Part shown: in pieces, positions 9,867-64,000 of the stretch
How the letters are laid out: the number at the start of each line of letters is the position of its first letter
How positions within the stretch are numbered: position 1 is the stretch's first letter
NCBI RefSeq assembly: GCF_031195445.1
Contig: NZ_CP133480.1
Span: forward strand, 3,712,501 to 3,776,500
Source of the DNA: Acuticoccus sp. MNP-M23
GTDB taxonomy: Bacteria > Pseudomonadota > Alphaproteobacteria > Rhizobiales > Amorphaceae
Direction of reading: 5' to 3'
Length of the DNA: 64,000 nucleotides
Notes under the pieces: generated by a model
The model's database searches: none
Seen by the model: the letters and a program-made list of their open reading frames with translations, nothing else
Told to the model about the DNA's origin: nothing
Translations under genes and position numbers: made by a program

Positions 9867-9882
9867 CGTCTTTCTTTCTCTA

Positions 9883-11179: not shown

Positions 11180-11201
11180 CGTTGATTTCCTTACGCAATA
11201 C

Positions 11202-11351: not shown

Positions 11352-12107
11352 TCAGCTGAAGGAGCCCACCAGGGAGCCGACCAGAAGGTTCCACCCGTCA
11401 ATCAGTACAAAAAACAGCACCTTGAACGGCAGTGCGATGATTGTGGGCGGCATCATCATCATGCCCATGGACATGATCAGCGTGGCGACAATGAGGTCGA
11501 TCACCAGGAAGGGCAGGAGGATGAGGAAGCCGATCTCGAATCCCCGCCGCAGCTCGGAAATCATGAAGGCCGGGATCAGCATCCTGAGCTCCACCGTCTC
11601 TTCCTGCGCCGGATCGATGCCGGCGAGATCGGCAAAAAGCTCCAGATCACGCGGACGTACATGGTCGAGCATGAACTGGCGGAAGGGTTCGGTGACCCGC
11701 GTGTAGGCCTCTTCCTCACTGATTTCATTGGCCGTCAGAGGCTCGACACCATCGCGCCAGGCGCGGTCGAACGTCGGACCCATCACATAGAACGTCATGA
11801 ACAGCGCAAGCGAGATCATCACGATGTTGGCCGGCGTCGTCTGCAGCCCGAGCCCGGCGCGCAGGAATGACAGCGCGACGATGATCCGGGTGAAGCTTGT
11901 CACCATGATGAGGAGGCCAGGGGCCAGCGACAGGATGGTGATCAGCGCGATGAACTGGACAATCCGCCCGCTTGCCGAGCCTTCCCCGGCGGGAAGGAGT
12001 GCCGACAGGTCGACGCCGCCGACATTTTGCGCCAGCGCCGGGGTGCCCGGGAACAACATGGTTCCGGCGGCGAGGAGCGCCAGAGTGGGGCCGGGGCGAG
12101 CAATCAT
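11352..12107 (-). CDS. fliP: Flagellar export gate protein FliP
   Basis: 251 aa from ATG 12107, which overlaps the fliL stop by 4 bases; the longer in-frame start at 12338 lies inside fliL and is rejected. A signal peptide (LALLAAGTMLFPGTPALAQ) is followed by the FliP core motifs: MVTSFTRIIVALSFLRAGLG, LALFMTFYVMGP, MLIPAFMISELRRGFEIGF, LPFLVIDLIVATLIMSMGMM and PFKVLFFVLIDGWNLL. FliP forms, with FliQ (31092) and FliR (33661), the membrane export gate inside the MS ring. It is the last gene of the flgB-to-fliP operon. Confidence 0.97.
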   Translation of the reverse strand: MIARPGPTLALLAAGTMLFPGTPALAQNVGGVDLSALLPAGEGSASGRIVQFIALITILSLAPGLLIMVTSFTRIIVALSFLRAGLGLQTTPANIVMISLALFMTFYVMGPTFDRAWRDGVEPLTANEISEEEAYTRVTEPFRQFMLDHVRPRDLELFADLAGIDPAQEETVELRMLIPAFMISELRRGFEIGFLILLPFLVIDLIVATLIMSMGMMMMPPTIIALPFKVLFFVLIDGWNLLVGSLVGSFS

Positions 12108-12616
12108 TGCAGCACCATGGACTTGATGATGAGTTCCTGAACGAGACCGTTGCTGAGGAGGCGGGCCCGTTCGTTGAGATCGGCGCGCAGATGGTTGAGA
12201 GCGCCGGCGCCCTGAAGCTCGCCAAGGGTGAGCGTGCGCACGTAGCCCAGCACCGTCTGCGCAAGCTCTGCCTTCAGGCGCGAGACATCCTCGACATTGT
12301 CCTTGTCGAAGACCATCGAGGATTCGATCCGGATCCACGTGGTTGCAGGGTTGGCAAGGTTGGAGATGATCGGGTCAAGGTCGGTGACAGTGCTGGTTTC
12401 GCTCCAGGCCAGCGCTTCCGGCACCTTCTCCGGCGCTTCGTTGGCCTTTTTGGTGATGACCGCGGCCAGGTTGTCCACCTGCATGAAGGCGACGCCGGCG
12501 CCGGCGCCGCCGCCCAGCACGGTGAGGGCCACAATGGCGACGATCAGCCCGCCTTTTCCGGATTTTGGCGTCGCGGCCGCTGGCGCCGCATCGTTATCCT
12601 GGGTGACATCGCTCAT
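12104..12616 (-). CDS. fliL: Flagellar basal body-associated protein FliL
   Basis: 170 aa. A disordered N terminus precedes one transmembrane helix (GLIVAIVALTVLGGGAGAGVAFM) and a periplasmic FliL domain with the usual pattern of a central strand (TWIRIESSMVFD) and C-terminal helices ending LVQELIIKSMVLQ. FliL forms a ring around the stator and affects torque and stator stability. It overlaps flgH by one base (TGATG) and fliP by four. A second FliL-like protein is encoded at 35635-36168. Confidence 0.9.
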   Translation of the reverse strand: MSDVTQDNDAAPAAATPKSGKGGLIVAIVALTVLGGGAGAGVAFMQVDNLAAVITKKANEAPEKVPEALAWSETSTVTDLDPIISNLANPATTWIRIESSMVFDKDNVEDVSRLKAELAQTVLGYVRTLTLGELQGAGALNHLRADLNERARLLSNGLVQELIIKSMVLQ

Positions 12617-13332
12617 CAGAAGGGCACCACGCGGTCGTAGAGCTGCTGGCCCCAGTTGGGAGACTGCACTTCGCTGGAGCGGCCGCGGCCACCGTAGGAA
12701 ATGCGGGCCTCGGCAATTTTCTCGTAGCTGACGGTGTTGGCTCTGGTGACGTCGAGCGGATTGACGATGCCCTTCAGCTGGAGAACACGCACCTCGGCGT
12801 TGACGCGGATTTCCTGCGTGCCGGATATGATGAGGTTGCCATTGGCCAGCACCTCGGTGACGATCACCGCCACTTGCAGGCGAAGGCGCTCGGACCGGTC
12901 GATGGCGCCCGAGCCGCGGTAGCGCGAGCTGGAATCGATACCCAGCTCCCCGTCAGCCTCGGCGGAATTGGCCGGACCATCGAAGCCCTGGCCGGCCCCC
13001 GCAATGCCGAAGCCAAAATCAGTGCGCGACTCCCGCTCGCGCTCGCTTTCGTTGTCGAACTGGGCCTGGTCATCGAGCTCGATGACCACGGTCAGGACGT
13101 CGCCGACATTGCCGGCGCGCACGTCGGTGAGGAGGTCGCGGCTCTGGCGGCCATAAAGGGAGCCGGCGTCGGACATGTTGAGGGGGACCGCAGACGGAAT
13201 AGCGGTGCGCGTGACGGCGAGACCCTCGCCAATGGGGGTGAGCGCCGGAACGCCGAAGGGCTGGCCTTCGGCGCAGGCGGCAAGAGCCAGCGGCACTGCG
13301 AGGATTGCGAGCGGGCGCGCACTCATGCTCAA
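12616..13332 (-). CDS. flgH: Flagellar L-ring lipoprotein FlgH
   Basis: 238 aa. The N-terminal signal ends in a lipobox (LALAAC), so it is an outer-membrane lipoprotein. Conserved parts include SLYGRQSRDLLTDVRAGNVGDVLTVVIELDD, GSGAIDRSERLRLQVAVIVTEVLANGNLIISGTQE and NPLDVTRANTVSYEKIAEARISYGGRGR. It forms the bushing in the outer membrane around the rod, next to the FlgI P ring. ATG overlap with motE upstream and fliL downstream shows translational coupling. Length is normal for the family. Confidence 0.96.
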   Translation of the reverse strand: MSMSARPLAILAVPLALAACAEGQPFGVPALTPIGEGLAVTRTAIPSAVPLNMSDAGSLYGRQSRDLLTDVRAGNVGDVLTVVIELDDQAQFDNESERERESRTDFGFGIAGAGQGFDGPANSAEADGELGIDSSSRYRGSGAIDRSERLRLQVAVIVTEVLANGNLIISGTQEIRVNAEVRVLQLKGIVNPLDVTRANTVSYEKIAEARISYGGRGRSSEVQSPNWGQQLYDRVVPF

Positions 13333-13904
13333 GCGCCCCTGCCGTCTTTGCCCCGGCCGAGGGTGGCCATGATGGTGGCAAGGCGGGCCGCCTTTTCGGT
13401 CTCCATCTCGTTGAGGACCGAGCTTGCGTTGCGCGGGGTCAGCTGGGCGACGATGGCGGCGGCGGTGAATTCGTCCATCACCGCAAGCTGGGCCGAGGCA
13501 GCATCCGGGCGCATGCCCGAATAGATCGACACCAGGCTCTCCTGCGCACGTTGCAGAAACTCCTCACGCCGCTCCAGCCAGTTCTGGTACTCGGTGCGCT
13601 TTTCCTCCAGCGCATTCAGCCGCGCCTCAACCTCTTCTTCAAGTACCTTCAGCGTTTGCGCCTTGCGGGCAAAACGAGCATCGGACGCCTCGTCCGCAAG
13701 GTTGGTGCAATAGGCAAGGGCCGTGTCGACGCCGTCCGGCGGCGTGGCAGCCTCCTGTCCGCGCGCAGTGGTCGCGGCCAGGGCGCCGGCGGCCAGAACG
13801 GCAACCGCGAGGACGATGCGGCGCGCGTGAGGCGGACGGGGATAGCGCGGCGGCTGCGGACGCTCGCGCGGCGGGGAGGGAGATGTTGCGGGACAGGGTG
13901 TCAT
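13329..13904 (-). CDS. motE: MotE-like flagellar protein
   Basis: 191 aa. A signal peptide (RIVLAVAVLAAGALAATTARGQ) is followed by a coiled coil (LEEEVEARLNALEEKRTEYQNWLERREEFLQ) and a C-terminal region with IYSGMRPDAASAQLAVMDEFTAAAIVAQL, the pattern of the MgtE N-terminal/MotE family. In rhizobia MotE is a periplasmic chaperone needed for MotC folding and motor function, encoded between flgI and flgH exactly as here. It overlaps both neighbours by 4 bases. Its presence agrees with the motC gene at 1203-4622. Confidence 0.85.
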   Translation of the reverse strand: MTPCPATSPSPPRERPQPPRYPRPPHARRIVLAVAVLAAGALAATTARGQEAATPPDGVDTALAYCTNLADEASDARFARKAQTLKVLEEEVEARLNALEEKRTEYQNWLERREEFLQRAQESLVSIYSGMRPDAASAQLAVMDEFTAAAIVAQLTPRNASSVLNEMETEKAARLATIMATLGRGKDGRGA

Positions 13905-15025
13905 TGTACGAGGAGCTCCGCTTGAAGGGCGCCGGCCGTCTTGATGGTTTGAAGGATCGAGATGATGTCGGTGGGCGTCAGGCCGATCCGGTTGAGGCCG
14001 TGAACGAGGGTCTGCAGATCGGTGCCCTGGACGATGGCAAGCTTGCCGCCGGTCTCGTCTGCGCCCACCGCGGTGAGCGGGACGATGGCCGTTTCGCCAT
14101 AGGAGAATGGATCGGGCTGCACCACTTCCGGCTGTTCGGTCACGCGAAGGGTGATGTTGCCGTGGGCAAGGGCAACGGTTGACACGCGGACATTCTGGCC
14201 GATGACGACGGTGCCGGTTCTCTGATCCACCACAACACGGGCCGCAATGTCAGGCGTGACCGGGATCTGGCCGATTTCGGCGAGGAATCTCGTGGCGCCG
14301 ACGGCACCGGGGCGCGTGATTTCCACTGAACGCAGGTTGCGCTCTGCGGCAAGGCGCTTGCCCCAGCGGCGCTGCGTATACTCGTTCACGGCATCGGCAA
14401 TCAGCGCGGCGGTGCGATAGTCCGGGTTGTTGAGTTCCAGCACCACCTGTTCGAGGCCTTGCATGGAACCCGGCACGCGCCGTTCCACCAGGGCGCCGTT
14501 GGGGATCCGGCCGCCGGTGGGAACGCCTTGCGTCAGCGCTGCAGCGTCCCCTTCGACGCTGAGGCCCGAAACCTGGATCGGCCCCTGTGCCACGGCGTAG
14601 ACCTTTCCATCGCCCCCGGTGAGGGGGGTCACCACAAGCGTGCCGCCCCGCAGCGAGGAAGCATCGCCGATGGAGCCGATCAGAACGTCAATCCGGGAAC
14701 CGACGCCCACGAAAGGCGGCAGGTCTGCGGTCACGGTCACCGCGGCGACGTTTCGCGCGCGAAGCGGCACGCCGCGCACGGCGACGCCCATCCGGTCGAG
14801 CATCGATTTCAACGCCTGCTCCGTAAACGGGGCGTTGCGCAAGGTGTCACCCGTGCCGGCAAGGCCGATGACGAGCCCGTAGCCGATCAGCTGGTTGTCG
14901 CGCACGCCCTGGACCGTGGTGATGTCCTTGATCCGGGCGGTTGGCTCGGACTGGGCGATGGCGGTCACCGAACCCAGAAGGCACGTTGCGGCCGCCACGA
15001 GATATGCAAGCCAGCGGCCCCTCAT
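13901..15025 (-). CDS. flgI: Flagellar P-ring protein FlgI
   Basis: 374 aa from ATG 15025, which has a signal peptide (YLVAAATCLLGSVTAIAQS) and overlaps the flgA stop by four bases. A longer frame reaching 15484 is a shadow over flgA. Typical motifs: ARIKDITTVQGVRDNQLIGYGLVIGLAGTGD, VTADLPPFVGVGSRIDVLIGSIGDASSLRGGTL, and the C-terminal GLNRIGLTPTDIISILQTIKTAGALQAELL. It assembles around the rod at the peptidoglycan layer with help from FlgA. Length is standard. Confidence 0.97.
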   Translation of the reverse strand: MRGRWLAYLVAAATCLLGSVTAIAQSEPTARIKDITTVQGVRDNQLIGYGLVIGLAGTGDTLRNAPFTEQALKSMLDRMGVAVRGVPLRARNVAAVTVTADLPPFVGVGSRIDVLIGSIGDASSLRGGTLVVTPLTGGDGKVYAVAQGPIQVSGLSVEGDAAALTQGVPTGGRIPNGALVERRVPGSMQGLEQVVLELNNPDYRTAALIADAVNEYTQRRWGKRLAAERNLRSVEITRPGAVGATRFLAEIGQIPVTPDIAARVVVDQRTGTVVIGQNVRVSTVALAHGNITLRVTEQPEVVQPDPFSYGETAIVPLTAVGADETGGKLAIVQGTDLQTLVHGLNRIGLTPTDIISILQTIKTAGALQAELLVQ

Positions 15026-50004: not shown

Positions 50005-50154
50005 CTGCACGGGTTCGCGCCGCTGCATCGCCTGCTTGCCGACACCTCCGCTCACATGCTACCCGGCATTGCCGAAGACGACGTTTGCTTGTTCCTTTTT
50101 GCGAAGTTGAAAGTCGGCACTCGGGGCATCAGACACGACAGCGTTTTTGAATAC

Positions 50155-50244
50155 GGATGGGTGGCCGAGTGGTTTAAGGCACCGGTCTTGAAAACCGGCG
50201 TGCGGGAGACCGTACCGTGGGTTCGAATCCCACCCCATCCGCCA
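50155..50244 (+). tRNA. tRNA-Ser (anticodon UGA)
   Basis: Acceptor GGATGGG pairs with CCCATCC, D arm GCCGAGTGGTTTAAGGC, anticodon stem CCGGT/ACCGG with loop CTTGAAA (anticodon TGA), a long class II variable arm, T arm GTGGG-TTCGAAT-CCCAC, discriminator G and an encoded CCA. It reads UCA codons. It marks the boundary between chromosomal genes and the mobile region to its right, and tRNA 3' ends are common integration sites. Confidence 0.96.
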
Positions 50245-50951
50245 CTCAGCGAGTTCGAACGGTTCTCTGCTCCTCCATCGAGCGCCGAAAACGCCACGGG
50301 GCGCGGCGTCGTTGCGCCGAAGCTGTTGACTACACAATCGGCGGAACGAGGTGAATTCGCTCTCTCCGGGGCAACATTCTCTCAAGCTGTTGACTACGCC
50401 ATCTTAGTCAACAGCTTTGGTAGGCCCGGATTTCGTGCGTTTTTCGGCGAGCGGCCGATCGCTGTTTTGCATTCTCGATCGGTAGGGGGCTGGGCGCCCA
50501 AATCGAAATTGCGACCAAGCTGAGGTCCGCAGTTGACCCATAGCTGCCCCTCGGCTGCCCTTTCAGCGACGTCCGCTTTGCGCCCCATTTCGGTCGTTCA
50601 GCCTGTAATGGGGAATGCTTAAAAGCGGACATTACTGTCACATGGACGGAATGGCCGCCTCCCCGGATTTATTGTGGCGTTCCCAAGTCCTCCGTCCACA
50701 GCAGGGATCGCCAAGAGCAGACTGCAGCTGGTGACGCTCATTGCGCCGGAATGTCGGAAAATGCGAACATGCGTTTGTTTGCGGAAAATGTCTAAACAAG
50801 AGACTGATGCCACGGCTCAATGGTCGTTGGTGCCAAGCCGCATAGCTTGTCGAGTTTATGCTGTGAACAATTCTTTGGTAAATCATACACCTTGCCCAAT
50901 TTCTTCGTCAGCGCTGGCGCGCTTAGGAGCGAGCATATACGCTTTGCTGAG
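50245..50951. other. 700 bp gene-free stretch after tRNA-Ser
   Basis: Several short frames cross it but none has family features or coding look. It holds the repeat cluster at 50320-50417 and a 12-base word (aaagcggacatt at 50622-50633) that recurs inverted at 59188-59199. Base composition is visibly less GC-rich than the operons to the left. Probably the edge of an acquired region. Confidence 0.6.
50320..50417. repeat. Direct and inverted 13-14 bp repeats next to tRNA-Ser
   Basis: The word aagctgttgactac occurs at 50320-50333 and again at 50384-50397, 64 bases apart. Its reverse complement (13 bases, tagtcaacagctt) follows at 50405-50417, so copies two and three form a perfect 13 bp hairpin with an 8-base loop. 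The set could be recombinase arm sites, a regulator binding array, or, for the hairpin alone, a weak terminator. Confidence 0.7.
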
Positions 50952-53900
50952 ATGAAAATGCGTTCGTCCGCTCCGCTACCAAGTTACCCCAAGGTCTCGC
51001 AGAATCCGCAGGACGAGCATTCGTTTTGGGAGCTCGGATCACGACGGTTCGAGCAATTTGCGCGCGCACTCCATGAAGCTCAGCCTGAGATTCTCAGTAC
51101 GAACCTATACGGTCCCGATGGACAGGAGCAGTTCGGTGCTGATCACATAGCGTTTCATCGACACGACCCAGCGCCTTATCTTGAAGTTGGTCAGGCCAAG
51201 GCCGAACGCCGGTTCGGACCAATTGGCATCCGTGCCGCCGCTGGCAGGTTTTTGAAGCATTGGGACAGCCATTGGCGGGAAAAGGACGTTCGTCACTTCA
51301 TCCTATTCGTTGGATGCTCGATCAAAAGCCGTCAGGCGAGTGACGAGATCATCGCCCAAACCCAGAATTTTGCAGCCCTTGGCATTCAATTTTCTGTGTG
51401 GGATTCGTCCCAAATCTATGATCGTCTTCCCGGCGCTAATGTCGCAGTTAGAGCCTATCTCGGCCAAAACTGGTATGAACGAATATTCGGCAAGCCCACC
51501 GGGCCACTTACCGGCTTGCAGCAGGCTCTCGAGCGCGGTTGGGACCTCAGCGCAGTCAGCCTTCAACATTATGTAACCCGCCTCAATCAGGCCGAGACAG
51601 GAGAAATTGCCGAGCTCAAGCGGCGTGCGAGGCGGGGAGAGACGCTCCGCGTTATCGCGGAACTCGAAAGTGCGTTGCGCTCCGAAGCCGTCGAAGCGCT
51701 GAGCGCGAGCGTTAGAGCGGGAAAGCTGCGGCTTTTAGCCGGACTGCTTATTCCCTCGGAAGACTTCACCCGGGTACGACGGCTGCTCGATCAAGCCGAC
51801 GCGCTCGAAGGCGAGTCGATCAGGCTGCGAGCAATTTTAACTCTCGAAGAGCTTGGTCCACAGCCGCTGCTGGACGGGGTATCGGCTGACGATATGGCAG
51901 AGTTGGCCGAGGTGCGCGCCGCGGCGCTGCTTCGTCAGGGTCGATCACAGGCCGCTTACGACGAGTTAGCAGTCCATATCGATGGGGATGACGCTCGGGC
52001 AGAGACCCTTCGTCTCGCCGCTTTGGCAAAGCTGGTGGCTAATGATCGCGAAGCGGCGGTCGCTCTGGCAGAGCGGGCTCTGGCCCGCGAACCCGATACA
52101 CGTGCCTGTCAGCAGGCGCTCGCCATCTGCCAGTTTCAACGCGCCTTGGCACCATCGGTCGAAATTGCTGTCGGCGAGTGGCCACCGCCCATCGATCAGC
52201 CTTTGGTCCGGCTGTCGGATGCGGCTCGAGCGGACTTGGAGAAGGCCGATTCCCTTCTCAGTGCGTTGATAGCCGATCCTGCCTTGGACGCGCACCGTTC
52301 TATGGTCATGTGGCACTTCGGCGTCCTGGCTTGCATGCCTTGGCGTCACGCAGTGACGACGCAGCGGTTGGCTCAGCTACAGGCCGATGGGGCGCTTCCG
52401 ACGCCGCTCATCGCATGGGCACTCTCGCGAGCCTTGCCGTTCGACAGGAGGGCCGCCATCGCGCAATGCGACGCTGATCTCGACTCTGATCCCGATGATT
52501 TCGAGACCCTGTTTATCCGCGTGGCGCTCGCAAACGCGGATCGCGACTTCGCGTGCGCACGTCAAATTCTTCAAACACGTTCAGACGCCTTGGAGGCTGC
52601 TGGCCATGCGGAGGTGCGAGATTATTGGCTTGCCGTCATCAACATGGAGACACATCGCTTACCAGCCGAGAGCGCGCTCGACGCGCATCCCTGGCTCCGA
52701 CTTCGCCGAGCCATGGAGATCCGTCGGAAGAAGCGGAGACGCGTCGCTATCGCTTCGGTCCTGGACGAGCAGCTCGCCGGCAGTAGCGATCCACGCGTCA
52801 TTCTGGCGGCCACGCAGTTGCTGCTCGAGGCTGGCTGGCATAAAAGCGCTGTTAAGGCGGCACCCTATCTCATTGAAAGAATTGGCACCGCCGAGGCCGT
52901 GGCGGCAGCCGCGCATGCCTACTATCGAAATGGGCAGCCGTCTCAAGTTCTATCAACGCTTGAGCATCTGCACGCTTTCCCGGGCGGAACGCTCCCTGTT
53001 CAACTGGAAAGGCTGCGGGCGAATAGTCTCGCCGCCAAAGGTGAGTTGATCGGCGCACGAGATCTCAGTCTGTTGATCGCCCAATCGACGAAACGGCCTG
53101 AGGATCTGTGGCGCTCGATCGAGCTTCAGCTGGCGATTGGAGCGGCGCCGGAAGCTCTGGCGCTGTACGAACAACATATTGCGGACTTGGCGCAGCCATC
53201 GCCGGGGCACATAGCCTTGGCGCGCGCTGTCATGCAGTCGCATCCCGATGCGGCGATGCGCATCACTCGCGATATTTCTGCCGACGCTCCCGATGAGTAT
53301 GTGACGGCAGCCTTCGATCTGGCGCTCAAGCTGAAAATGGCGGCCGAACAGCGCGTGCTAACGGGCCGCCTCGAACAACTGGGCGCGCAAGGACGCGGCG
53401 GCGTCAAGCGTTTCTCGATCGACGACATCGTGAGGATGATGCAGGAGCGCCGCGAGCAGGTAGAGCGGACGTTCGAACTGTACGCTAAAGGGCACGCGCC
53501 GGTCTATGTTCTGGCGAGTTTTCGACAGGAAGCGCTGGCCTCTATCTATCTTGGTCCGCTCCTCAAGGCACCCGAACCCACGGAGAACCGGGCGGTTCTC
53601 TCGGCCCGCTACGGTCGGCGTATGGAGGATGACCCGTGGCCGGAAAATCGCGCGGATGTGCGACTTCTGGTCGACCTCACGGCGCTACTGACAGCGCACG
53701 GGCTCGGAATTCTGGAACTCGCCGAACGCGCCTTTGCGCCGCTCTGGATTGCGCCGGAAGCCGTTCCTGCCATGCTGGCGTTACGATCGGCCAGCGAGAT
53801 CGCACAACCTGAACGCGTTGACGCTATGCGCGCCGTTCTGGCGCGTCTCGCTGGTGGAGAGCTTCACGATCGGGCGCAGCTATCTGCGGCCGATACCTTT

Positions 53901-55323
53901 CACGTGCTCTGGGACGGTGATGGCGGAGAGCCAAATTCTACCTTGTCCTTCCATCGCCTGTTCGACGTCTTAGCGAAGCAGCTCGGGAAACGAGCCGGGG
54001 AGAAAGCGCGCGATACATTAGGTACAACTCTCGACGCCGCTGCTGTTGGTGCAACCCCTCCGAATGGCGCAGTCGTCACGCTCGACCAGGGCATCGCCGT
54101 AACCTTGGAACAGGCCAATCTCCTCGGCGCCTTGTGCGCGCAGTTTCAGGTTGGCATCCAGGAAAGCGAGATCGCTGAGGTCCGCGTAACGATTGTTGAT
54201 GCGGATCGGCGGCTGGCAACCGTAGAGAGTCTCTCTGCCCTTATTGGTAAAATCCGCGTCGGTCTCGAAGACGGCACCTACAAGAGCGTGCCGGTTCGCG
54301 ATGTTCAGCACCCGGAGCATGCGGGGCGTAGCTTCATGCAACTCCTCCAGTCGCTGGCGTCGGACGGAGGGATCGCATGGGTCGACGACCGCTATACCTC
54401 GTCAATTAACAATCAGGCATTCCGGATCGCGACTACGGTCGAAATTCTCGACGCACTTCTTCGATATGGGCGGCTGACGGGGAGTCAGCTTGACGGTTTT
54501 CGGCAGCGCCTACGTGCCGCGCGCTGGCTTTTCATGCCGCTGCGGGGCGATGAGATCGCCGGCTTCATGCGACGGGCGGTGCGACATGCCCAGCTTCGAG
54601 AAACCGAAGACCTCGCAGTCATTCGCCGGTCCATTGGCGAGGCCCTCATCCATCGCCGGCGTTTGCAATGGCCCGAGCCGACAGCGGTCGAACACGGTAT
54701 CAAGGGCGAGGTACCCTTCTTGCTCGATTCCGAACATGCGATAATCCAAGCCCTCGCAGCTATATGGAACGACGATAGCTGGACCGTTGGCGATGCGGAG
54801 GTCGCATCGGCCTGGATCGTCGATACGCTGGAGATGAGCCTCATCCCCATGCTGGTTTTGGCGGCCGGGGATCCTCGATCTGACAGCCTGCTCGGTACCC
54901 ACCTCGGCTGGTTGGCGCTCGTCGCCATCCAGATATTTTCAGGCAAGAGGTCCGAGCAGCAGCAACGCGCATATCTCGACTGGTTATGGCGGCATGTGCT
55001 TGCAAACGCGCTGAGAGTCCGCCCTGAAATACGCAGCGGCCTTGAAGAGATGATCGAACGCCATTTGACGCGGACCGACGACGGACTAATGGAAGATCGC
55101 CTTTGGCTGGCGCTGTCGGGGCGGGTCCTGAACGCCATGCCGCTACCGCTGCGTGTGTCGCTGCTTCAACGTCCCAGTATGCGTAACGCCCTCAATCTCC
55201 CTGATCACGGGCAGATAACGGTCGACGGTTTCGACTTCGACGAGCGGGAAATTTTGGGACGCTATCGTCAACGCCGCTGTTGGTCTGGTCAAGGAACTGA
55301 AGACGATTCGCGATGAAGCGGCG
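50952..55323 (+). pseudogene. 5' part of a giant nuclease-TPR-PIN protein gene (frameshifted, then cut by IS)
   Basis: From ATG 50952 the frame gives 1454 residues and stops at 55316. Residues ~25-175 look like an Mrr-type PD-(D/E)xK nuclease: FEQFARALH, Asp64 in FGADHIAF, and EVGQAK with Lys83. Residues ~200-800 are TPR-like helical repeats (AAYDELAVHIDGDDARAETLRLAALAKL). A PIN-like domain follows at ~900-1190, with LLVDLTALL (Asp908) and WVDDRY (Asp1145). No P-loop is seen. At 55249-55251 one extra A shifts the frame; removing it gives EREFWDAIVNAAVGLVKELK, which runs up to the IS and in frame into the 3' part. I recall similar TPR/PIN giants as predicted conflict-system proteins; no function is proven. 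Confidence 0.8.
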
Positions 55324-55349
55324 TGACGTTGCCCCAGAAGTGTCCCCGC

Positions 55350-56171
55350 TCATAGCTGGACTCTGTTCGTGTTGTGGTCCCATCGGGACCGGGTTGCAAA
55401 CTCGTTCGGGGTGAGGCCGCCCAGGCTGGTGTGCGGCCTGTCGTGGTTGTAGTCGGTGCGCCATTCCTCAATGATGCGGCGAGCGCCCGGAAGGCTGCGG
55501 AAGAGATGCTCGTTGAGGCACTCATCGCGGAAGCGACCGTTCAGGCTCTCTACGAAGCCGTTCTGCATCGGCTTGCCGGGCGCGATGTAGTGCCAATTGA
55601 CGCGGCGGTCCTCCTGCCATTCGAGGATGGCATGGGAGGTCAGCTCGGTGCCGTTGTCGCTGACGATCGTGAGCGGCTTGCCGCGACTGACGATCAGGCG
55701 GTCGAGTTCCCGTGCCACGCGAGCCCCCGACAGTGATGTGTCGACAACGAGCGTCAGGCACTGGCGGGTGAAGTCGTCGAGCACCACCAGCACACGGAAG
55801 CGGCGCCCGTCGCTGAGCTGGTCGGAGACAAAGTCGAGGCTCCAGCGCTGGTTTGGTCCTCGCGGCAAGGTCATTGGCGCCCGCGTTCCGATGGCACGTT
55901 TTCGGCCGCCGCGCCGTCGTACACTCAGCCTCTCCTCGCGGTATAGGCGGAACAGCTTCTTGTGGTTCACCTCGATACCCTCGCGCCGCAAAAGGATATG
56001 CAGCCGCCGATAGCCGAACCGGCGCCGTTCGTTCGCCAGCGTTTTCAGGCGTTGGCGCACCGTCGCATCGTCCGGCCGCTGCGACCGGTAGCGGTAAGTC
56101 CTTGGATGCATCCCGATCAGGGCACAGGCGCGCCGCTGGGAATACCCCTTCTTTTCAATCGCCCAACTCAC
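55350..56171 (-). CDS. IS3-family transposase OrfB
   Basis: 273 aa from ATG 56171; in practice made as an OrfAB fusion by -1 frameshift, since the OrfB frame is open back to the OrfA end. Catalytic DDE residues: Asp in SLDFVSD, Asp in VSDNGTE, and Glu in [14 protein letters not shown], exactly 35 residues after the second Asp. N-terminal HTH_21 region ([19 protein letters not shown]). Ends just inside the IS left end. Confidence 0.95.
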
Positions 56172-56194
56172 GAAGCCTCTCCGTGCGCTGGGCG

Positions 56195-56461
56195 TCAGAA
56201 GTTTTTTCCCAGAGCGTCCCGCAGCGTCGCCACATCGAGCATCTGTTCGGCGAGAAGCTTCTTCAGGCGGCCGTTCTCATCTTCCAGCGCCTTCAGCCGC
56301 CTGGCTTCAGACACTTCCATTCCGCCGTAGCGCTTGCGCCACGTGTAGAACGTCGCGTCGCTGATCCCGTGCTTGCGGCACAGCTCCGACACACCGATCC
56401 CCGCGGCATGCTCCTTCAGGACCGCGATGATCTGCTCTTCGCTGAAGCGGCTCTTCTTCAT
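56195..56461 (-). CDS. IS3-family transposase OrfA
   Basis: 88 aa. HTH motif of the IS3 OrfA type ([41 protein letters not shown]) and a leucine-zipper-like tail ([22 protein letters not shown]). The run of six A on the minus strand (plus-strand T run 56202-56207), just before the stop, is the likely -1 frameshift site to OrfB. Confidence 0.94.
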
Positions 56462-56520
56462 CTCCGTCTCCTTCTGACGGAGTCCAGTTCAGACCGAGGA
56501 CATTCCAAGGGGCAACGTCA

Positions 56521-58216
56521 GGCGACCGTCGAATGGATTGAGAGCGACGACGATCCTCACCTGAAGCTGACGGTCGGTCGGAGAAAGATGCGGCTCGACG
56601 CTTGGCCGCGTCGGGTTGCGAGCGAGGACGCCACTGTTCGGAAGCAAGCCCTTCTCGAGCGGGCTGGCGTCATGGACCTGTCGGAAAAGCAATTGGACGC
56701 GTTCAATGCTTCGCTCGCCTCGACGAGCCCAACTTATTTACGCGTGCGGGCAAGCTTTGCGAAATCACATGAGGCGATGCAGCACTGGTACGCAGATCTA
56801 GACACTGACGTTCGCGAAAAGCGAGCGTTCGCGTTGGCCGATCTTGAACCTGACGCAATCGGCAAACTCATCCGGCACCTCCGCTTGGACGACGATTTTG
56901 AGCAGGCAGCGCAAACGTTGATCGATGAGCGCGGTCTAGTCGTGGCGGTGCGCAGGCTCGGCGGCATCCCCATCGCCCCACCAGCGCCGATCATTTCCGC
57001 CCTCGCGTCGCTCGAAGAGAATGGCATGGCGTGCTTCCTTGATGAAGTGGAAGGCGAGACTTCATCGCCTTGGACTCAGCTCTTTCTTGCCGATGCGCTG
57101 GCGAGCCGCGACCTGAGCGACCTCGTATCGGCCAGAGTGCGGGGCTGGGTCGATCGGGCCCTCTCGGAGGAGGCCAACCCAATATGGAACCTCTACATCG
57201 CCCTTGCGAAGTTCACAGCGTCCGCAGCCTATGCCGACCCCGAGTGGGCAACGCTATCCGCGCGAAAGCAGCTCGCCGCGTGTTGGTCGCACGCCAACGC
57301 ACTCACCGAGATCCTTATCGCAGGCCATGTGATTATCGAGAAAGTGCTCGATATGATCGGTAGCAATCGGCTTGTTTCACCACGTATACTAGTCGAGCAA
57401 CTCGATCAGTTCACCCAAGACACCGCCAATCCCAGGGAGATCGCTGTTGATCGCTTGAAAGCGCATGTAGCGGCGCCGGCGTTGATCCAGTTCCAGAAGC
57501 AGGCTTCCCATCAAGAATGGGCGGGGTCGAAGCTCCATCAGCTGGTTGTCGAAATCAACGATGACGGCGAGCGTCCCCGGATGGACATCATTCGCGGGTC
57601 ATTGGCGCCAGACAACGCGATGCCCAGTAGGCTGAATGCCGAGCTGGGGGATGTGTTTGACGCGCTCCATCCCCACACCGGCGCGTTATTCCGCGACAAG
57701 GTAGAAGGATTGCTCACAGCGTTGCTGGCAGCCGAGCCGGGCAGCCGCGAAGCCGTCTCTGGCTGGCATTTGCTACGTGAAGCCAGCACCGATACGCCCT
57801 TGCCAAAGGATCTGGCTGACCTTGCGCGTGAACGTGCCAATGACTGGGATCTGTCACTTCCCGGCGAAGAGTTGGAAAGTGCGCGCTTCCACCTTCTCAT
57901 CTTTACAGCGCTCGCGTCAGTAAACGGTTGGGTTCATCAGTCTGACAAGATCGATATCGCCGCGACAGCGCTTGGTCCGCGCGAGGGTGATGACGAGGCC
58001 CCGGTATTGTTCGAGATCGCGATCTGGCGGGCAAGGATGATCGGCGAAATTCCCGAGCGCCTGCAGTTCTTGGCGCGCGACCTCCTTCGGCTCGCGCGCC
58101 ACGAGCCTCTTCGCGAGCAGGCAATTGTTGCTGCACGACACTTCGCTCGTAGCTTGTCGGGGCAGCAGGCCGAACATTTTGTAGACGCCCTTGGCGAACT
58201 CATCGCCACCTACTGA
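56521..58216 (+). pseudogene. 3' part of the giant nuclease-TPR-PIN protein gene
   Basis: Open from the IS edge to TGA 58214-58216, about 564 codons, with no own start or ribosome site. Joined to the 5' part by removing the IS and one ggcg copy, it reads TIRDEAATVEWIESDDDPHLKL without a break; with the upstream extra A also removed the intact protein would be 2020 residues. The part is helical throughout (ASEDATVRKQALLERAGVMDL, EQAAQTLIDERGLVVAVRRLGG) with no recognised catalytic motif. Probably not translated now, though a downstream reinitiation product cannot be excluded. Confidence 0.8.
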
Positions 58217-58711
58217 CGGTCAGACGGTCGGCCGCGAACCTTCAAAATTTCCGAGTCCGCGGCAGGTCAATCGGACCTAACATTCAGGAATGGAGGCGGC
58301 TATTTGGGGGGGCATTCCTGCCCGGACGTTTAGAGGCATGCCAACGACGGGTCCCGGCGTGAACGGATATTAACTTGTCTGCTACCAAATGTCATGAATT
58401 CGTCGGAAACGGACGCGAACACTGCCACCGTCGAATCGCAGCTTCGCTCGATCCGGCGGCCAAGACCGGACGGTCGGCAATCGGCCCCATGCCGGACGTT
58501 CGGGCCTTCATTTGCCAAAGTCTGCTTTTGGCACGACTTAGTGGCGGGTCTGCCCTCGAACTGCCTAGGCTGGGCGACCATCGCTTGAGTGGCCTGCTCC
58601 GACGCGCATTTCCGTTCCAGAGCGAGGCCACGATGCGCCGCTTGAAAAATGTGCCGGCAGTGCTTCAGCCTCTCACTCCAGAAAGCCGCGCGCGAGGAGG
58701 ACATGCGATCG
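58217..58711. other. 495 bp stretch without a supported gene
   Basis: Frames of 149 and 170 codons overlap here on opposite strands, but neither has family features. A 7 bp inverted pair (aggaatg 58285-58291 and cattcct 58312-58318) flanks a G-rich run. The end carries the AGGAGG ribosome site of the next gene at 58695-58700. Confidence 0.5.
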
Positions 58712-59095
58712 ATGGGAAAATACGGCATAGTCGCAGTGAACGCAGCAAGGTTACTCGCGGGGGAGGGCTCCTCTTCCCCGCGTTCCGCGTGGGAACAGGC
58801 TGCGAAGGCAGTATTTCCAAATAGCCCATCATCCCAGTGCAAGGGGTGCCCCCGGAACGCGTTTCTTGCGTTGTGCGAGATGGGTTTGCTCGCGCGGGTA
58901 GTAACGGGAAGTTACACTCGCTCCGAAAAAAATAAATCTTACGTTTGTCGCGCTTTAATGGCGCTGCGCTTGGACCATACGCTGGCGACGGACAAACAGG
59001 CTCTTTGGAAACGAGCTGTCCTTGGCGAGCCGAAAAAACACAATTCCCAGATGGACGTCCTGCTCGCGTTGTGGAGGAACAGGCTGATCGAGTGA
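58712..59095 (+). CDS. DUF6979-type small protein
   Basis: 127 aa from ATG 58712 (MGKYGIVAVNAARLL); ATG 58703 is nearer to AGGAGG but leaves only two bases spacing. Features: AWEQAAKAVFPN, a KGCPRNAFLALCEMGLLARV segment with two Cys, YTRSEKNKSYVCRALMAL, ALWKRA and a C-terminal QMDVLLALWRNRLIE. I recall this pattern as DUF6979, small proteins scattered in bacterial accessory regions, with no known function. It is intact, unlike its upstream neighbour, and convergent with the recombinase module. Confidence 0.7.
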   Translation: MGKYGIVAVNAARLLAGEGSSSPRSAWEQAAKAVFPNSPSSQCKGCPRNAFLALCEMGLLARVVTGSYTRSEKNKSYVCRALMALRLDHTLATDKQALWKRAVLGEPKKHNSQMDVLLALWRNRLIE

Positions 59096-59282: not shown

Positions 59283-59690
59283 TCATGCGGTGCTGCTTGA
59301 GCGTTCCAGAAGGCGCGCCTGCTCATTCCAATCCGCGGAGAAGGGCTTTGACAAGCTCTGGAAGTCCAGTGTGACAGCCTGGGTTCCGTTCAGGGCATTC
59401 TCAACGAGTGTGGGCGAGAGCAGCGTCAGCCTGAGCACCCGGCTCACGTACGATGGATTGATCCGCTCCGCTGTTGCCAGCTCCCGCAGCGTCGCATACT
59501 CGCCGCCCTCAAGCATGCGCTGCCAGCGGTGGGCCCGCGCGATCGCCTTCACAAGTGCATTGTCGATTTCGCGCTCAGGCGACGGCTTCAACTCGATTCC
59601 ATCTGGCGTGACCACACGCTTGCGGCCGCGCCAGCGCTGAAACGTGATCGGCACCTTCACCGTCATCGTCTTGTTGGAGGCGCTGCTCAT
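59283..59690 (-). CDS. ParB-type HTH protein of the recombinase module
   Basis: 135 aa. A basic N terminus (TFQRWRGRKRVVTPDG) is followed by an HTH that reads EYATLRELATAERINPSYVSRVLRLTLLSPTLVENALNG, like the DNA-binding helix pair of ParB/KorB proteins. Its ATG overlaps the recombinase stop by four bases, so it is made with the recombinase and may guide it or regulate the element. No partition ATPase is seen nearby. Confidence 0.75.
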   Translation of the reverse strand: MSSASNKTMTVKVPITFQRWRGRKRVVTPDGIELKPSPEREIDNALVKAIARAHRWQRMLEGGEYATLRELATAERINPSYVSRVLRLTLLSPTLVENALNGTQAVTLDFQSLSKPFSADWNEQARLLERSSSTA

Positions 59691-61009
59691 GCCGCAAGCG
59701 CCTCCCGCGCAGCCATCTCTTGTGTGACGCCGGAGAAGCCGTCGATCCGCAGGCGAACTGCCACCCCATCCAGCTCGATCTGGACACGCTCCACCAGCAG
59801 CTGGACAAGCCGGGACTGCTCAGCGGGGAACAGCTCGTTCCACACCGAATCCAGAGCCTGCAGCGCGTCGCGGACTTCGGCTTCGGTCACGTCCGCGTCC
59901 TGCTCCCGAGCCTCGCGCCACGTTCCGACGATGATCTCGGGCTGGCGGAACAAGTTACGCAACTGGTCGATGACCGCGGCCTCGACCTCACCCGCGGAGA
60001 CACGGCCCACAGGGCATGACCCGGCGCCATGCTTCAGCACGGTCTGGCTGACGTAATAACGGTAGAGCTTGCCGCCCTTGCGGGTGTGCGTCGGCGAGAA
60101 TGCGGCGCCGTCGGGACCGAACAGCAGCCCCTTCAGGAGTGCGGGCGTGTCGGCGCGAGTGCGTGCCGCGCGCTTTCGCGGGCTTTCCTGCAGGATGGCG
60201 TGGACGCGCTCCCACATCTCGTGATCGATTATGGCGTCGTGCTCGCCGGGATAGCTGTCGCCCTTGTGGACCGCCTCGCCGATATAGGCGCGGTTGCTGA
60301 GCATCCGATAGAGGTATTTCTTGTCGATCCTGTTCCCGCGCGGGGTGCGGATGCCGCGAGTGCCGACCTCCCGCGCCAGTTCCGTGCAGGACCCGATCTC
60401 GAGGAAGCGGTCGAAGATCCAGCGGACATGCGCGGCGGCTTCTTCGTCGACCACCAGCTTCCGGTTTTCGACCCGGTAGCCGTAGGGCGGGACCCCGCCC
60501 ATCCAGATGCCCTTTTTGCGGCTGGCGGCGACCTTGTCGCGGATGCGATCGGCGGTTACCTCGCGCTCGAACTGGGCAAAGCTGAGCAGGATGTTCAGGG
60601 TGAGCCGGCCCATGGACGTGGTGGTGCTGAATGACTGCGTGATTGAGACGAAGGTGACGCCGTGCCGTTCGAACACGTCGACGAGCTTGGCGAAGTCGGT
60701 GAGCGAGCGGCTGAGGCGGTCGATCTTGTAGACCACCACTACATCGACCAGCCCATCTTCGATGTCGTCCAGCAGCCGCTTCAACCCGGATCGTTCCAGC
60801 GTCCCACCCGAGATGCCACCATCGTCATACCGATCGCGTACCAGCACCCAGCCCTCGGACCGCTGGCTGGCGATGTAGTTCTCACACGCTTCGCGCTGGG
60901 CGTGGAGCGAGTTGAACTCCTGCTCCAGCCCTTCCTCGGAGGATTTCCGGGTGTAGACGGCGCACCGCAGCTTGCGGACCACCTTAGATTTTTCCGCCGG
61001 CTTCATCAT
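59687..61009 (-). CDS. Serine recombinase (resolvase/recombinase family)
   Basis: 440 aa. The resolvase domain has catalytic Ser23 in AVYTRKSSEEG, then DRYDDGGISGGTLERSGLKRLLDDIEDG, VVVYKIDRLSRSLTDF and LSFAQFEREVTADRIRDK. A recombinase domain follows (PPYGYRVENRKL, LAREVGTRGIRTPRG, LYRMLSNRAYIGE). In the place of the zinc ribbon it reads GLLFGPDGAAFSPTHTRKGGKLYRYYV, without the CxxC pairs of most large serine integrases. Expected to integrate and excise the element. Overlaps DUF2924 upstream and the HTH gene downstream by four bases. Confidence 0.95.
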   Translation of the reverse strand: MMKPAEKSKVVRKLRCAVYTRKSSEEGLEQEFNSLHAQREACENYIASQRSEGWVLVRDRYDDGGISGGTLERSGLKRLLDDIEDGLVDVVVVYKIDRLSRSLTDFAKLVDVFERHGVTFVSITQSFSTTTSMGRLTLNILLSFAQFEREVTADRIRDKVAASRKKGIWMGGVPPYGYRVENRKLVVDEEAAAHVRWIFDRFLEIGSCTELAREVGTRGIRTPRGNRIDKKYLYRMLSNRAYIGEAVHKGDSYPGEHDAIIDHEMWERVHAILQESPRKRAARTRADTPALLKGLLFGPDGAAFSPTHTRKGGKLYRYYVSQTVLKHGAGSCPVGRVSAGEVEAAVIDQLRNLFRQPEIIVGTWREAREQDADVTEAEVRDALQALDSVWNELFPAEQSRLVQLLVERVQIELDGVAVRLRIDGFSGVTQEMAAREALAA

Positions 61010-61458
61010 GCGCCTGTCCTATGGTTCTTGAGGCCGAAGAAGACCCAGCCGTTCCAGCGTGTAGCGGTGATGGCGCGGGCGATGGCCGAGAGCGACTTGT
61101 AGGGCCGCCCTTGCCATTCAAACCCGTCAGCGGTGACTGTGACGATGTGCTCGACACCCTGCCATTCGCGCAGGAGCCGGGTGCCGGTGATGGGGCGGCC
61201 GCGATCGGCGCGAGCGCAGCGCATCTTGCAGTCGCCGCCATCGAGCTCTTCGCCCAGCCGTTCCAGGCGCTTCACTGTCTCGGGTTTCAGGCCGCCGTAG
61301 GTGAGCTTTTGGATGCGGTAGGCGAGACGGCTCTCCAGGTAGCGGCGGTTGAACGGCGGCGGTTCACTGTCGAAGAGATCGCGCCACTGCTTCTTCAGTT
61401 CGGGGGTCGGAGCCGTCTTCAGTGCAGCGAGACGGGCGGGGATGGTGTCGGCGGTCAT
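61006..61458 (-). CDS. DUF2924 protein
   Basis: 150 aa from ATG 61458, chosen because GGAG lies five bases ahead and it overlaps the upstream stop by four bases. Family features: LKKQWRDLFDSEPPPFNRRYLESRLAYRIQKLTYGGL, GTRLLREWQGVEHIVTVTADGFEWQGRPYKSLSAIARAITATRWNGWVFFGL. DUF2924 genes are commonly found just before a serine recombinase in alphaproteobacterial elements. Function unknown; a recombination helper is a guess. Confidence 0.9.
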   Translation of the reverse strand: MTADTIPARLAALKTAPTPELKKQWRDLFDSEPPPFNRRYLESRLAYRIQKLTYGGLKPETVKRLERLGEELDGGDCKMRCARADRGRPITGTRLLREWQGVEHIVTVTADGFEWQGRPYKSLSAIARAITATRWNGWVFFGLKNHRTGA

Positions 61459-61724
61459 GCGGTCTCCAATGGGTTGGCTGACGGACAACCGCTCTCATCG
61501 GGCGGGAGGTGAAGTCGAAATTCTCCATCTCCCGCAGTGACTTGGATATCGCGGCTGCGGAGCCGGAGAAGTCCGGCCGCAAGGATTGCGCAAAGTTCAC
61601 AAAGCCGCTCTTCGGTGCTCAACAGTTTCGGGTCGAGTGTGTTTGGACCTGCGGTCGGGAGGAGCGGCCGGTTATCGATGTCCCCCCGCCGCTTGTTCGG
61701 ATAAGGCAAGATTTGCGTCCGCAT
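61455..61724 (-). CDS. Small protein of the mobile module, unknown function
   Basis: 89 aa. The central part LLSTEERLCELCAILAAGLLRLRSRD is helical and looks like a conserved core seen in proteins of the same gene neighbourhood; both ends are polar. The stop overlaps the DUF2924 start by four bases. The ATG at 61724 overlaps the ATPase gene by 53 bases, so a later start is possible. Confidence 0.6.
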   Translation of the reverse strand: MRTQILPYPNKRRGDIDNRPLLPTAGPNTLDPKLLSTEERLCELCAILAAGLLRLRSRDIQVTAGDGEFRLHLPPDESGCPSANPLETA

Positions 61725-63593
61725 CGTCCGCCGTCGAGGCCAGCGGTGACGTTTTGCGGGCGGTCGATGTCGACTCAGCGTCCGCAGGAAGCCGTGTTGC
61801 GTCCGCGGATCCCGGCTGCCTCGCCGCTCGATCGCGTTCGAGATCCGCAGTCACGCTGCCCACCGCATCCTGCGCGGACGATGCGGACGATGCGGACGGT
61901 CGTTTCCCATCATCGTCGGAAGGCGCGTTGGCCTGCCGTGTGATGTGGATCAGACGGATGCGCTCATGCCCGGATATCGTGTAAGCGATCTGCAGTCCGG
62001 CATGCCTGAGGGCAGCTGCGCAGCGGCGGACCCGACCCGACAGGGCGCGCGGACTGTCTGGCCACAACTTCGACCGGGAACGCTCGCCGGCGACTCGTGT
62101 GAGGGTGGACAACAGCTCCATCGCGGTGCCGCTCCATTCGTTCTGGTCCGCCATCAGCACCCTCAAGGCGGATGCGGCGGGATCGGCCTCGATCACCTCG
62201 TCAACGATCCTGTCGCGATTGGCGCGGTACGCGTTCATGAAAGAGCCGGCGGGCCACAGCGTGCTCTCACAGGCGGTCGCCCAGAGCGTGAAGTCCGCCA
62301 TCCGCGGCAAGCTGCCGATCCTGGTTTCGGAAAGTTCGCGCAGGCCGGTCGAGAGGGCGTCGAGCAGAGCGCCGAGGAGGCGCGGCCGCGCATCATGAAA
62401 CCGCGCCTGGAGTGCAGTCTCGGGCACGCGATTGTACTCGGGGATCGGCTCAAGAGTGAGGAAGATCGCCCGATCGGCGAGATCGTCGCGTGAGACCACA
62501 TCCTCGATCCCGTTGAGGATTACGGGGCGCACCGCGGTGAAGAGGGCCTCATCCTGATCGGTATGGAGCTGGCGGGTTGCGTAGCCGCCGCCGGTCGCGA
62601 GGCGGCACAGAGTGTCGGACAGCCAGACCGGAATCGCCGAGACGTTGTCGAATGCCTGGACGTGAGCGTTGCCGGCGGCGATGAAGAGATCGCGATCGTC
62701 GCGCGGCAGGGCGCGAAGCGGAGCCGTGTTGGGATCGACGATGTTGCGCAGGATCGTCACGAAGGTGGATTTCGCCGACCCCTGCTCGCCTGAGACAACC
62801 AACAGGGGATAGGGGCAACGATCGCGTAGCGCGGCAAGAAGCCAGGACACGACGAGGATGAAGTCGTCGTCCGAGCCGACGTTGAGGAACTCCCGGAGCT
62901 CGGCGATCAAGCCGCCCGAGGCGGGCGGCGGCAGAGGACGCATATCCCGCGTCCGGATGAAGCGCACAGGGGGACACTCGACGATGCGCCAGCCGGTCGC
63001 ATCGATCTCCACGGCGCGCCAGCCATCGTCGACGAGGTCGAGGAAGAGGTGCCCCGCGTGGCTGGCGAGGCGAAGGTGAACCGGCCGCTCCGGTCCGTCG
63101 AAGGGGGCCTGGGCCTCCAGCACGTTCAGCGCTGCCTGGAAGGCGACGGCGCCGGGCGCGCTTCCGGTCTCCTGATAGTAGCGCCGTGCCAGCCAGTGAC
63201 GGAAGGGCTGGCTGCGAACTCGGTAGGTCTCGCGATGGTTGTCGATCTGGAGGTCGGCGCAGGCGCCGCCATCGGGCGAGTGGAAGAGTTCGACAGCGCT
63301 CGCGATGTCGATGAGGATGTCGGCCTGTGCGGAGCTGCTGCCACCTTCGCCGCGCTCGGACTCGATCAGCTTGTCGAGCGCGGCAACGCGGACGCCAGCC
63401 TTCTTCAGTCGGGCGCGGAGGTCTTCGAACTCGGGGCGGTTCGAAGCCTTTAGCAACGTTAGCTCGGCGAGAACGCGGCGCCGGGATCGTGCGTCACTGC
63501 GGCAACGAGCTCGTTGAGGGGATCGGCCACAGCCTCCGCGCCCTCGACAGCTGCGATAATTGACAGATGGGGATTCCGAGACTGATCGATCAC
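61672..63593 (-). CDS. Primase-helicase-type ATPase of mobile element, with N-terminal frameshift
   Basis: The real start is GTG 63593: GGAGG lies seven bases upstream and it overlaps the Toprim stop by four bases. That frame gives VIDQSRNPHLSIIAAVEGAE to THDPGAAFSPS, then stops at 63459-63461. The main frame picks up at about 63475 with VLAELTLLKA and runs to 61672. The shift equals a net loss of one base (mod 3), perhaps a deletion between two ttctcgccga-like words. The main frame has Walker A VVSGEQGSAKST, LIAAGNAHVQAFDNVSAIP, RPVILNGIEDVVSRDDLADRAIFL: a D5/primase-helicase-type ATPase. Probably inactive unless the shift is a sequence error. Confidence 0.7.
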
Positions 63594-64000
63594 GCAGAAA
63601 CCTCCGTGGTGGCGGCGCCGCGGATGAGGAGGTCGTTGAAGTCCACGCCAGCGGGAGGGCGAGCGATGCGAACACTGCGACCTTCGGCGCGCCAGCGACG
63701 GGCTGCAGCCGTCGCAGCCGACTCGCCGGGCGGATCGCCGTCGGCCAGAACGATCACGTCGCAGATGGTGCGGGGCAGGTCGAGAAGGCGCAGGCCAGAG
63801 GTCGACAGTGCGGCCCATGCGGGCCGGCCGGTCGCCTGCATGACGGCGAGGCAGGTCTCGATGCCTTCGCCGACCATCACGCTGTCGGTGGCATTGGCGA
63901 GGCGGAAAGCGCCGCCGCCGCTGGGGCCAAGCATCATCTTGTTGGGGCTGACGAGTGCTTTGCCACTACCGTCCGCTTTCAGGAAGGTGCGATGGATCGC
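63590..64000 (-). CDS. Toprim-domain protein (primase type), 5' truncated by window edge
   Basis: 137 codons are visible, open to the right edge. The frame reads AIHRTFLKADGSGKALV and MMLGPSGGGAFRLA, then the Toprim motifs: VGEGIETCLAVMQATGRPAWAALSTSGL (catalytic Glu), VIVLADGDPPGESAATAAARRWRAEGR (DxD) and ARPPAGVDFNDLL. These are features of phage/plasmid-type primases. It is first in line of the overlapping module Toprim-ATPase-89 aa-DUF2924-recombinase-HTH, all on the minus strand. The N terminus, which would hold the zinc finger, is outside the window. Confidence 0.88.
   Translation of the reverse strand, partial: AIHRTFLKADGSGKALVSPNKMMLGPSGGGAFRLANATDSVMVGEGIETCLAVMQATGRPAWAALSTSGLRLLDLPRTICDVIVLADGDPPGESAATAAARRWRAEGRSVRIARPPAGVDFNDLLIRGAATTEVSA

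Follow-up and report, generated by a model that had tools for sequence, protein, structure and literature searches.

What is encoded by a giant gene that can no longer be read through, and did its intact product serve in bacterial immunity? The question is raised by a stretch of 64,000 nucleotides (nt) of Acuticoccus sp. MNP-M23, here called the window (NZ_CP133480.1, positions 3,712,501-3,776,500 of the forward strand; GCF_031195445.1), in which one gene lies in two pieces around an insertion sequence (IS). The first-pass annotation, made from the letters of the window, had joined the pieces into a 2020-residue protein and proposed a single-protein defence or abortive-infection system. On comparison with its homologues, we regard the gene as having probably belonged, before its inactivation, to the standalone TPR-GreA/B-C-PIN conflict systems; its intact protein would be a three-part suicide-immunity device. 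Membership in this predicted family is very likely, and a defence or abortive role, as judged from sequence comparison, is likely.

The window copy is a pseudogene with intact orthologues

A scan of genome contigs retrieved four loci with the gene (loci are given L numbers here, proteins P numbers and genomes G numbers). It is intact in Sphingosinicella microcystinivorans (L003), Sphingobium sp. Leaf26 (L004) and Sphingomonas sp. A2-49 (L005), and truncated at the N-terminus in the fourth locus, L002. From the equivalent methionine, all three intact orthologues are 2020 amino acids (aa) long, exactly as reconstructed; the open reading frame listing gives 2022-2024 aa for them because it counts from upstream starts. 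Their identity to piece 1 is 86-87% in the best segment. Both lesions that the reconstruction had bridged were also confirmed (Table 1). The reading frame is lost just after codon 1430, residues 1421-1430 being those of L003 except one, and residues from 1431 onward being different. An IS3-type element, flanked by a GGCG duplication, sits inside the gene at a site that is unoccupied in the orthologues; its ends are TGACGTTGCCCC/GGGGCAACGTCA, inverted, and it codes for two minus-strand proteins with Pfam matches to HTH_Tnp_1 and rve. With its frame lost near codon 1431 and an IS inside it, the window copy is a pseudogene; intact copies exist elsewhere, and piece 1 could still yield a truncated protein with the nuclease and PIN parts. 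The ratio of nonsynonymous to synonymous substitution rates (dN/dS) was 0.19-0.23 among L003-L005 and 0.14-0.15 against the window (codons 1-1433), and stayed within 0.14-0.23 over both gene parts in all pairs. Long intact orthologues with such ratios place the gene beyond chance, and the ratios indicate purifying selection over most of its history, which is compatible with a recent, though undated, break in the window copy. Decay of the giant gene has occurred more than once, because the relative on the Rhizobium beringeri plasmid pRlX4 (L030:9884-14516) also looks broken, its match spanning four annotated hypothetical proteins.

Table 1. Parts of the giant gene and the inserted element, in window coordinates
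Feature	Coordinates	Strand	Remarks
Piece 1 of giant gene	50952..55316	+	1454 codons, stop 55314-55316; orthologue frame kept to about codon 1430
Mrr-like PD-(D/E)xK nuclease	50952..51521	+	residues 1-190; Asp64, Gln81, Lys83
Helical TPR-like scaffold	51549..53393	+	residues 200-814
HTH upstream of double PIN, PF24407	53418..53621	+	residues 823-890; E 3.4e-12, 47 bits, cut-off 27
PIN copy A	53634..54059	+	residues 895-1036; first Asp (908) kept, no DDR
PIN copy B	54060..54746	+	residues 1037-1265; D1145-D1146-R1147, E1201, E1253
Permuted GreAB-C, PF24388	55221..56572	+	placed from L003 residues 1424-1473; split by frame loss and IS
IS3-type insertion sequence	55324..56520	-	terminal inverted repeats; 4-bp target duplication GGCG at 55320-55323 and 56521-56524
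Piece 2: end of GreAB-C and C-terminal region	56528..58216	+	stop 58214-58216; C-terminal region looks exchanged as a unit in L003

Domain architecture of the giant protein

The window pieces (P0001 and P0002) and the L003 orthologue (P0003) were compared with family collections. In Pfam, PF24407 (HTH_upst_double_PIN) scored over its curated cut-off in the window protein, and PF20698 (PIN-TPR-GreABC) gave a partial match at residues 906-946 that stayed below its cut-off (20.4 bits versus 27.8). PF24388 (Permuted_GreAB-C) was over its cut-off in P0017, encoded by the second of the genes into which an Agrobacterium relative is split. Among 14 relatives, at E<=0.1, the families found were PF24407 (11/14), PF20698 (8/14), PF24388 (3/14) and TPR_14 (3/14). 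The window protein matched no TPR family in Pfam; in one relative, P0012, TPR_2, TPR_14 and TPR_19 were all over cut-off. The PIN region (residues 895-1265) precedes the GreAB-C match (1424-1473), which is followed by ~550 further residues. The Pfam search added to the first-pass annotation the HTH and GreAB-C parts that had been missed, in a copy that is broken.

The Mrr-like start carries the previously named Asp64 and Q81-A-K83 at the places given for them. D64 and K83 are invariant in all 12 aligned nuclease-type N-termini, and position 81 is Q or S; the L085 row has Q at position 83 in the full-length alignment, and K in the local alignment of the N-terminus. Mrr_cat of Pfam was matched by nine of the 12 at E<=1 (best 7.7e-5), the L003 row being without a match. 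The absence of a P-loop, noted earlier, was likewise upheld, as neither Walker A nor any NTPase family of Pfam was found in the window pieces or P0003, and the Walker A pattern had just two isolated matches across 21 sequences, at unrelated places in P0010 and L085. NCBIfam gave no match at E<=0.01 for either P0003 or the window piece. Among solved structures, the whole protein as query found none at E<=1, and the nuclease profile found weak, unconvincing matches only.

Exchange of the N-terminal effector

The N-terminus was typed at 23 places, the window included, that of the L026 giant being judged by eye. It is an Mrr-like nuclease at 14 of them, namely the 12 of the local alignment and, as typed in the full-length alignment, L005 and L034. 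The others comprise a caspase (L028, on a Leptolyngbya boryana plasmid), a fused nucleoside phosphorylase (L024), an alpha/beta-hydrolase match (L029), and a bDLD3 death-like domain in three (L022, L023, L026), each with a phosphorylase-bDLD3 gene directly upstream; two have no type assigned (L027, L086) and one is cut off (L002). In the clearest comparison, the change lies at the front of the protein: from about residue 256, the caspase protein of Leptolyngbya has 51.5-53.9% identity with nuclease proteins of cyanobacteria, three of which were compared, versus about 21% between its N-terminus and that of P0007. The fused phosphorylase matched two PADLOC models, one of them named Effector, of the PN-superfamily. 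Five assigned types on homologous cores thus show an exchangeable effector over a constant core, and because exchangeable N-terminal effectors are a signature of conflict systems, such a reading of this gene is supported.

The separate phosphorylase-bDLD3 genes lie at L022:13645-15633, L023:588-1703 and L026:983-2104, and the L022 protein has an extra N-terminal region of about 310 residues. The L086 relative (8436-14591; 2051 aa), the N-terminus of which has no Pfam match, is preceded by a gene for a DUF499 protein.

The PIN region is a partly decayed tandem duplication

The PIN region is covered by 20 rows of the alignment, 17 of which have a long (doubled) form and three a short form, in which the first half is fused directly to the DDR half; P0018, the broken R. 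beringeri copy, falls short of the region and is outside the 20. The row counts are not independent, because some rows are near-identical (the window with L003-L005; L032-L034). The motifs that had been read as PIN-like, Asp908 and WVDDRY, are indeed at their assigned places (the latter at 1143-1148) and are kept in the homologues: D908, D1146, R1147, E1201 and E1253 in 20/20 rows, and E1217 in 19/20, with position 1145 being D in 15 and E in five.

Profile comparison revealed that copies A and B of the long form are homologous and collinear (E 3.7e-6, probability 87%), and that the ‘double PIN’ is therefore a tandem duplication. Nine other segments of the same proteins served as a control, their best values being E 0.045 with B and 0.1 with A. 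Copy B aligns with the single PIN along its whole length (E 1.4e-27), and the match of copy A is weaker (E 4.8e-12). Copy A has the first Asp in 17/17 rows and the DDR in none; copy B has DDR or EDR in 17/17, and its own starting Asp in six, the remaining rows having N (4), G (5), S (1) or E (1). The losses in the two copies are thus complementary, and the duplication is partly decayed. The earlier claim of two nuclease domains on one scaffold stands insofar as both motifs are conserved, and has to be amended in that the PIN is this partly decayed pair and the nuclease at the N-terminus belongs to a set of interchangeable effectors.

A tentative and rather doubtful extension is that the ribonuclease site is composite, with copy A giving D908 and copy B giving the DDR and the glutamates, such that it would be active only when the copies are pressed together, the exchangeable C-terminal module setting their docking upon arrival of an invader. 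If true, the protein would have a P-loop-free sensor core, independent of nucleoside triphosphates (NTP), with swappable effectors. Two observations stand against a simple complementary picture. In 15 of its 17 rows, copy A also has an acidic residue at column 1005, and copy B is complete in six rows, four of which are the window and its close orthologues, so that copy B alone could work there. In one alternative reading, copy B uses other acids for its activity and D908 is structural. A loose acidic-pair pattern was also seen in nine of the 17 copy-A rows, at scattered places (as LDE or LEE in the four rows from cyanobacteria and as DDK in L032).

Spread as a cassette and exchange of the C-terminal region

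Each pair among L003, L004 and L005 shares a single block of DNA of ~6.2 kb, running from 114-131 base pairs (bp) upstream of the gene to 9-19 bp past its stop, and the homology of the window to all three covers 50951-58219, starting from 50908 in the case of L004. Homology with each of the three stops just outside the gene, in keeping with a standalone gene, and since the shared DNA is limited to it, the gene spreads as a single-gene cassette among unrelated sites.

Within the cassette, identity was followed in bins of 250 bases. As far as alignment column 4250, L003 and L005 are 94.8-98.4% identical; a single bin at 92.8% follows, and beyond it the identity is 80.8-86.8%. L004 and L005 remain at 92.8-98.8% throughout. 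The identity of L003 to the window, by comparison, is 83.6-89.2% before column 4250 and 87.5-92.0% after it, and the synonymous distance of this pair drops from 0.45 to 0.30 after the switch. Most simply, L003 would have acquired its last ~550 codons from another lineage. In three other groups of relatives, conservation of GreAB-C and the last C-terminal stretches was somewhat lower than elsewhere in the protein, by no dramatic margin.

Distribution of relatives

By tblastn, the window piece found 11 plasmid records, and relatives used as queries found more. Relatives are located on plasmids of cyanobacteria (L007-L009, L028), rhizobia (L030-L034), Agrobacterium (L029) and Azospirillum (L027), and further ones in genomes (L022-L026, L085, L086). 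The copies are partial or broken at two loci (L026, L030); at two others (L029, L085) the gene stops early, with a second gene after it. Own genome included, the gene occurs in 2/150 relatives of the window's genome and in 7/398 genomes of the phylum, two of the seven being weak, with internal stops (G397, G506). PF24407 was found in 1/61 relatives, which is the own genome, and in none of 14 control genomes. In a scan of 337 genomes, 32 had matches, nearly all short and to the TPR part, with one (G569) to positions 1371-1474 instead; judged from match length, G731 and the own genome are the only probable true relatives there. In a set of 48 genomes, 17 matched, five of them strongly (G281, G269, G320, G253, G213). 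The gene is rare and patchy in its distribution.

Comparison with described systems

The ‘TPR-GreAB-C-PIN’ type had been named in the first-pass annotation, and assignment to it agrees with PF24407 being over cut-off, with PF20698 being in place, albeit below its own, and with the description by Kaur et al. (2021, eLife, PMC8195603). The passages of that paper that concern the system describe a constant, rapidly evolving region of TPR, GreA/B-C and PIN, mostly standalone, with EAD10 or one of 13 effectors at the N-terminus, those named being a restriction-type nuclease, HNH, phosphorylase, TIR, SIR2 and proteases. The system is proposed there to act on virus-hijacked RNA polymerase: the PIN would cut the transcript as it is extruded, with the N-terminal effector as a back-up. 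Common to these systems and the window gene are the exchangeable N-terminal effector and the standalone state and, probably, the TPR-like scaffold, the PIN and the GreAB-C region; nuclease and phosphorylase, two of the N-terminal types found here, are also among the effectors named there. There are also differences. The wording of the same passages is a C-terminal PIN, which does not fit here, because the PIN precedes GreAB-C and ~550 residues; it is, moreover, doubled in 17 of 20 rows and has an HTH in front. The caspase, hydrolase and bDLD3 N-termini found here are not among the effectors named for the system in those passages. The double-PIN (PF24407) and permuted GreAB-C (PF24388) models of Pfam do fit this variant; in this trio of families, PF24407 is over cut-off in the window and PF24388 in a relative, with PF20698, and PF24388 in the close orthologue, below.

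Among the systems of DefensePredictor (PMC13092281), some of which are labelled there as TPR proteins, DS-3 is described as a one-protein defence system with a PIN split between the N- and C-terminus, catalytic mutants of which lose defence. Compared by description only, DS-3 and the window gene are alike in being a single protein with a PIN ribonuclease in two parts; unlike in DS-3 as described, the separation of the PIN here is a tandem duplication inside a ~2000-aa protein. No experiment on the family of the window gene is named in the titles and abstract openings retrieved from an open-licence library.

Proposed mechanism and alternatives

In the mechanism that we propose, an interchangeable N-terminal effector, here the Mrr-like DNase, would be held off by the constant middle of the protein, composed of the TPR scaffold, the HTH, the doubled PIN ribonuclease and the permuted GreAB-C, while the C-terminal region would probably help to detect the invader. 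Upon detection, the PIN region would cleave RNA, possibly at RNA polymerase as suggested by Kaur et al. (PMC8195603), and/or the DNase would be released, in which event DNA would be destroyed and the infection stopped. Contact with RNA polymerase is weakly supported, because PF20698 stays below its cut-off of 27.8 bits in all members listed (best score 26.9) and PF24388 does so in the close orthologue (P0003 residues 1424-1473, E 0.0019, 18.2 bits, cut-off 27).

These two scores also weigh against the assignment as a whole, as do several other results. Profiles of the PIN and GreAB-C parts had weak matches and no convincing one among solved structures. Of the two window pieces and four intact relatives compared with the PADLOC models, a single relative had a match, and we know of no phage challenge of this protein. 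On location of the homologues in defence islands, which the first-pass annotation had put forward as a check, conflict-type genes occur within 10-12 kb of the giant at eight of ten annotated plasmid loci, a count that has no plasmid-background control, and two of the loci (L030, L031) had no clear conflict-type gene within that distance. The conflict-type neighbourhood of the plasmid relatives is, thus, suggestive only. Lastly, tblastn against phage records and six scans of viral contigs found no relative, which is uninformative on the target.

This last result would also suit a role in plasmid exclusion, in which the protein acts mainly on incoming or competing plasmids and mobile DNA and not on phages, as the carrier element's weapon against rivals. 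Of 11 plasmid loci, seven belong to conjugative plasmids and one to a mobilisable plasmid, the other three (L009, L027 and L028) being typed as non-mobilisable; furthermore, genes for a TrwC relaxase and a coupling protein are found about 3 kb upstream of the L005 copy, and a TraI-type helicase protein is encoded about 8 kb upstream of the L003 copy. It is generally known, however, that defence genes of many kinds travel on plasmids, and that caspase, phosphorylase and hydrolase effectors are typical of cell suicide and not of DNA exclusion, for which reasons we hold plasmid exclusion to be unlikely. The nuclease motif of Mrr-type type IV restriction endonucleases is also alike, and the Mrr_cat similarity together with the invariance of D64 and K83 would agree with an enzyme of this type on a large scaffold, in which the nuclease is the sole active part and senses modified DNA, the PIN being a structural remnant. 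Here, however, the nuclease is only one of several N-termini, being replaced by non-nuclease effectors on the same core, and D908, D1146, E1201 and E1253 are kept in 20/20 rows, which makes such an enzyme quite improbable. The size, the N-terminal effector and the long helical regions are, finally, reminiscent of sensor NTPases of the Avs/STAND kind, but a misreading of that sort has almost no probability left, as the P-loop is missing.

A conflict system with suicidal effectors, as preferred by us, would be a giant single-gene immunity candidate that is free of an NTPase and has the effector set of other suicide systems, and would represent a distinct design of sensor-effector switch. The complementary PIN losses and the C-terminal exchange make the published prediction concrete enough for mutants and chimeras, and intact 2020-aa copies are available in the named sphingomonad strains.

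Genomic neighbourhood

Conflict-type genes near the giants include toxin-antitoxin genes (L007, L009, L029, L032), a TaqI-like specificity-domain protein (L008), HsdR-N and SIR2 (L029), the GTPase-associated-system gene GASH (L033), phospholipase-D/AAA genes (L034), and genes for multiubiquitin, a ThiF-type E1 and DUF6527 (L028:4214-6580), which are situated about 1-3.5 kb upstream of the caspase-type giant. Near the L004 copy is a phosphorylase protein. In L003, about 50 bp separate the intact orthologue from a Schlafen AlbA_2 gene on its downstream side (L003:16115-17185), which is outside the shared block.

In the window, a DUF6979 gene (58649-59095) is directly downstream of the broken giant, followed on the minus strand (59283-64000) by genes for a serine recombinase, DUF2924, a 667-aa protein that matches nothing in Pfam at E<=0.001, and a Toprim/DUF7146 protein running past the window end; this latter stretch looks like part of an integrated element. 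The first-pass annotation had seen significance in the recombinase and in a nearby tRNA gene (tRNA-Ser, 50155-50244), and neither link was supported. The homology to L002-L005, the sphingomonad copies among them, covers the gene only and excludes the downstream DUF6979, recombinase, DUF2924 and Toprim genes. For tRNA-targeted integration, no exact repeat of at least 14 nt of the region about 50151-50319 was present in 83.4 kb (the window plus downstream contig), a search that a diverged repeat would escape.

Genes of the RHE_PE00001 family recur upstream of giants (L029:5025-6155, L032:1373-2518, L033:8309-9442), alongside VapBC-type genes (L029, L032) or an integrase (L029, L033). Such recurring surroundings in rhizobial and Agrobacterium plasmids suggest a shared insertion hotspot.

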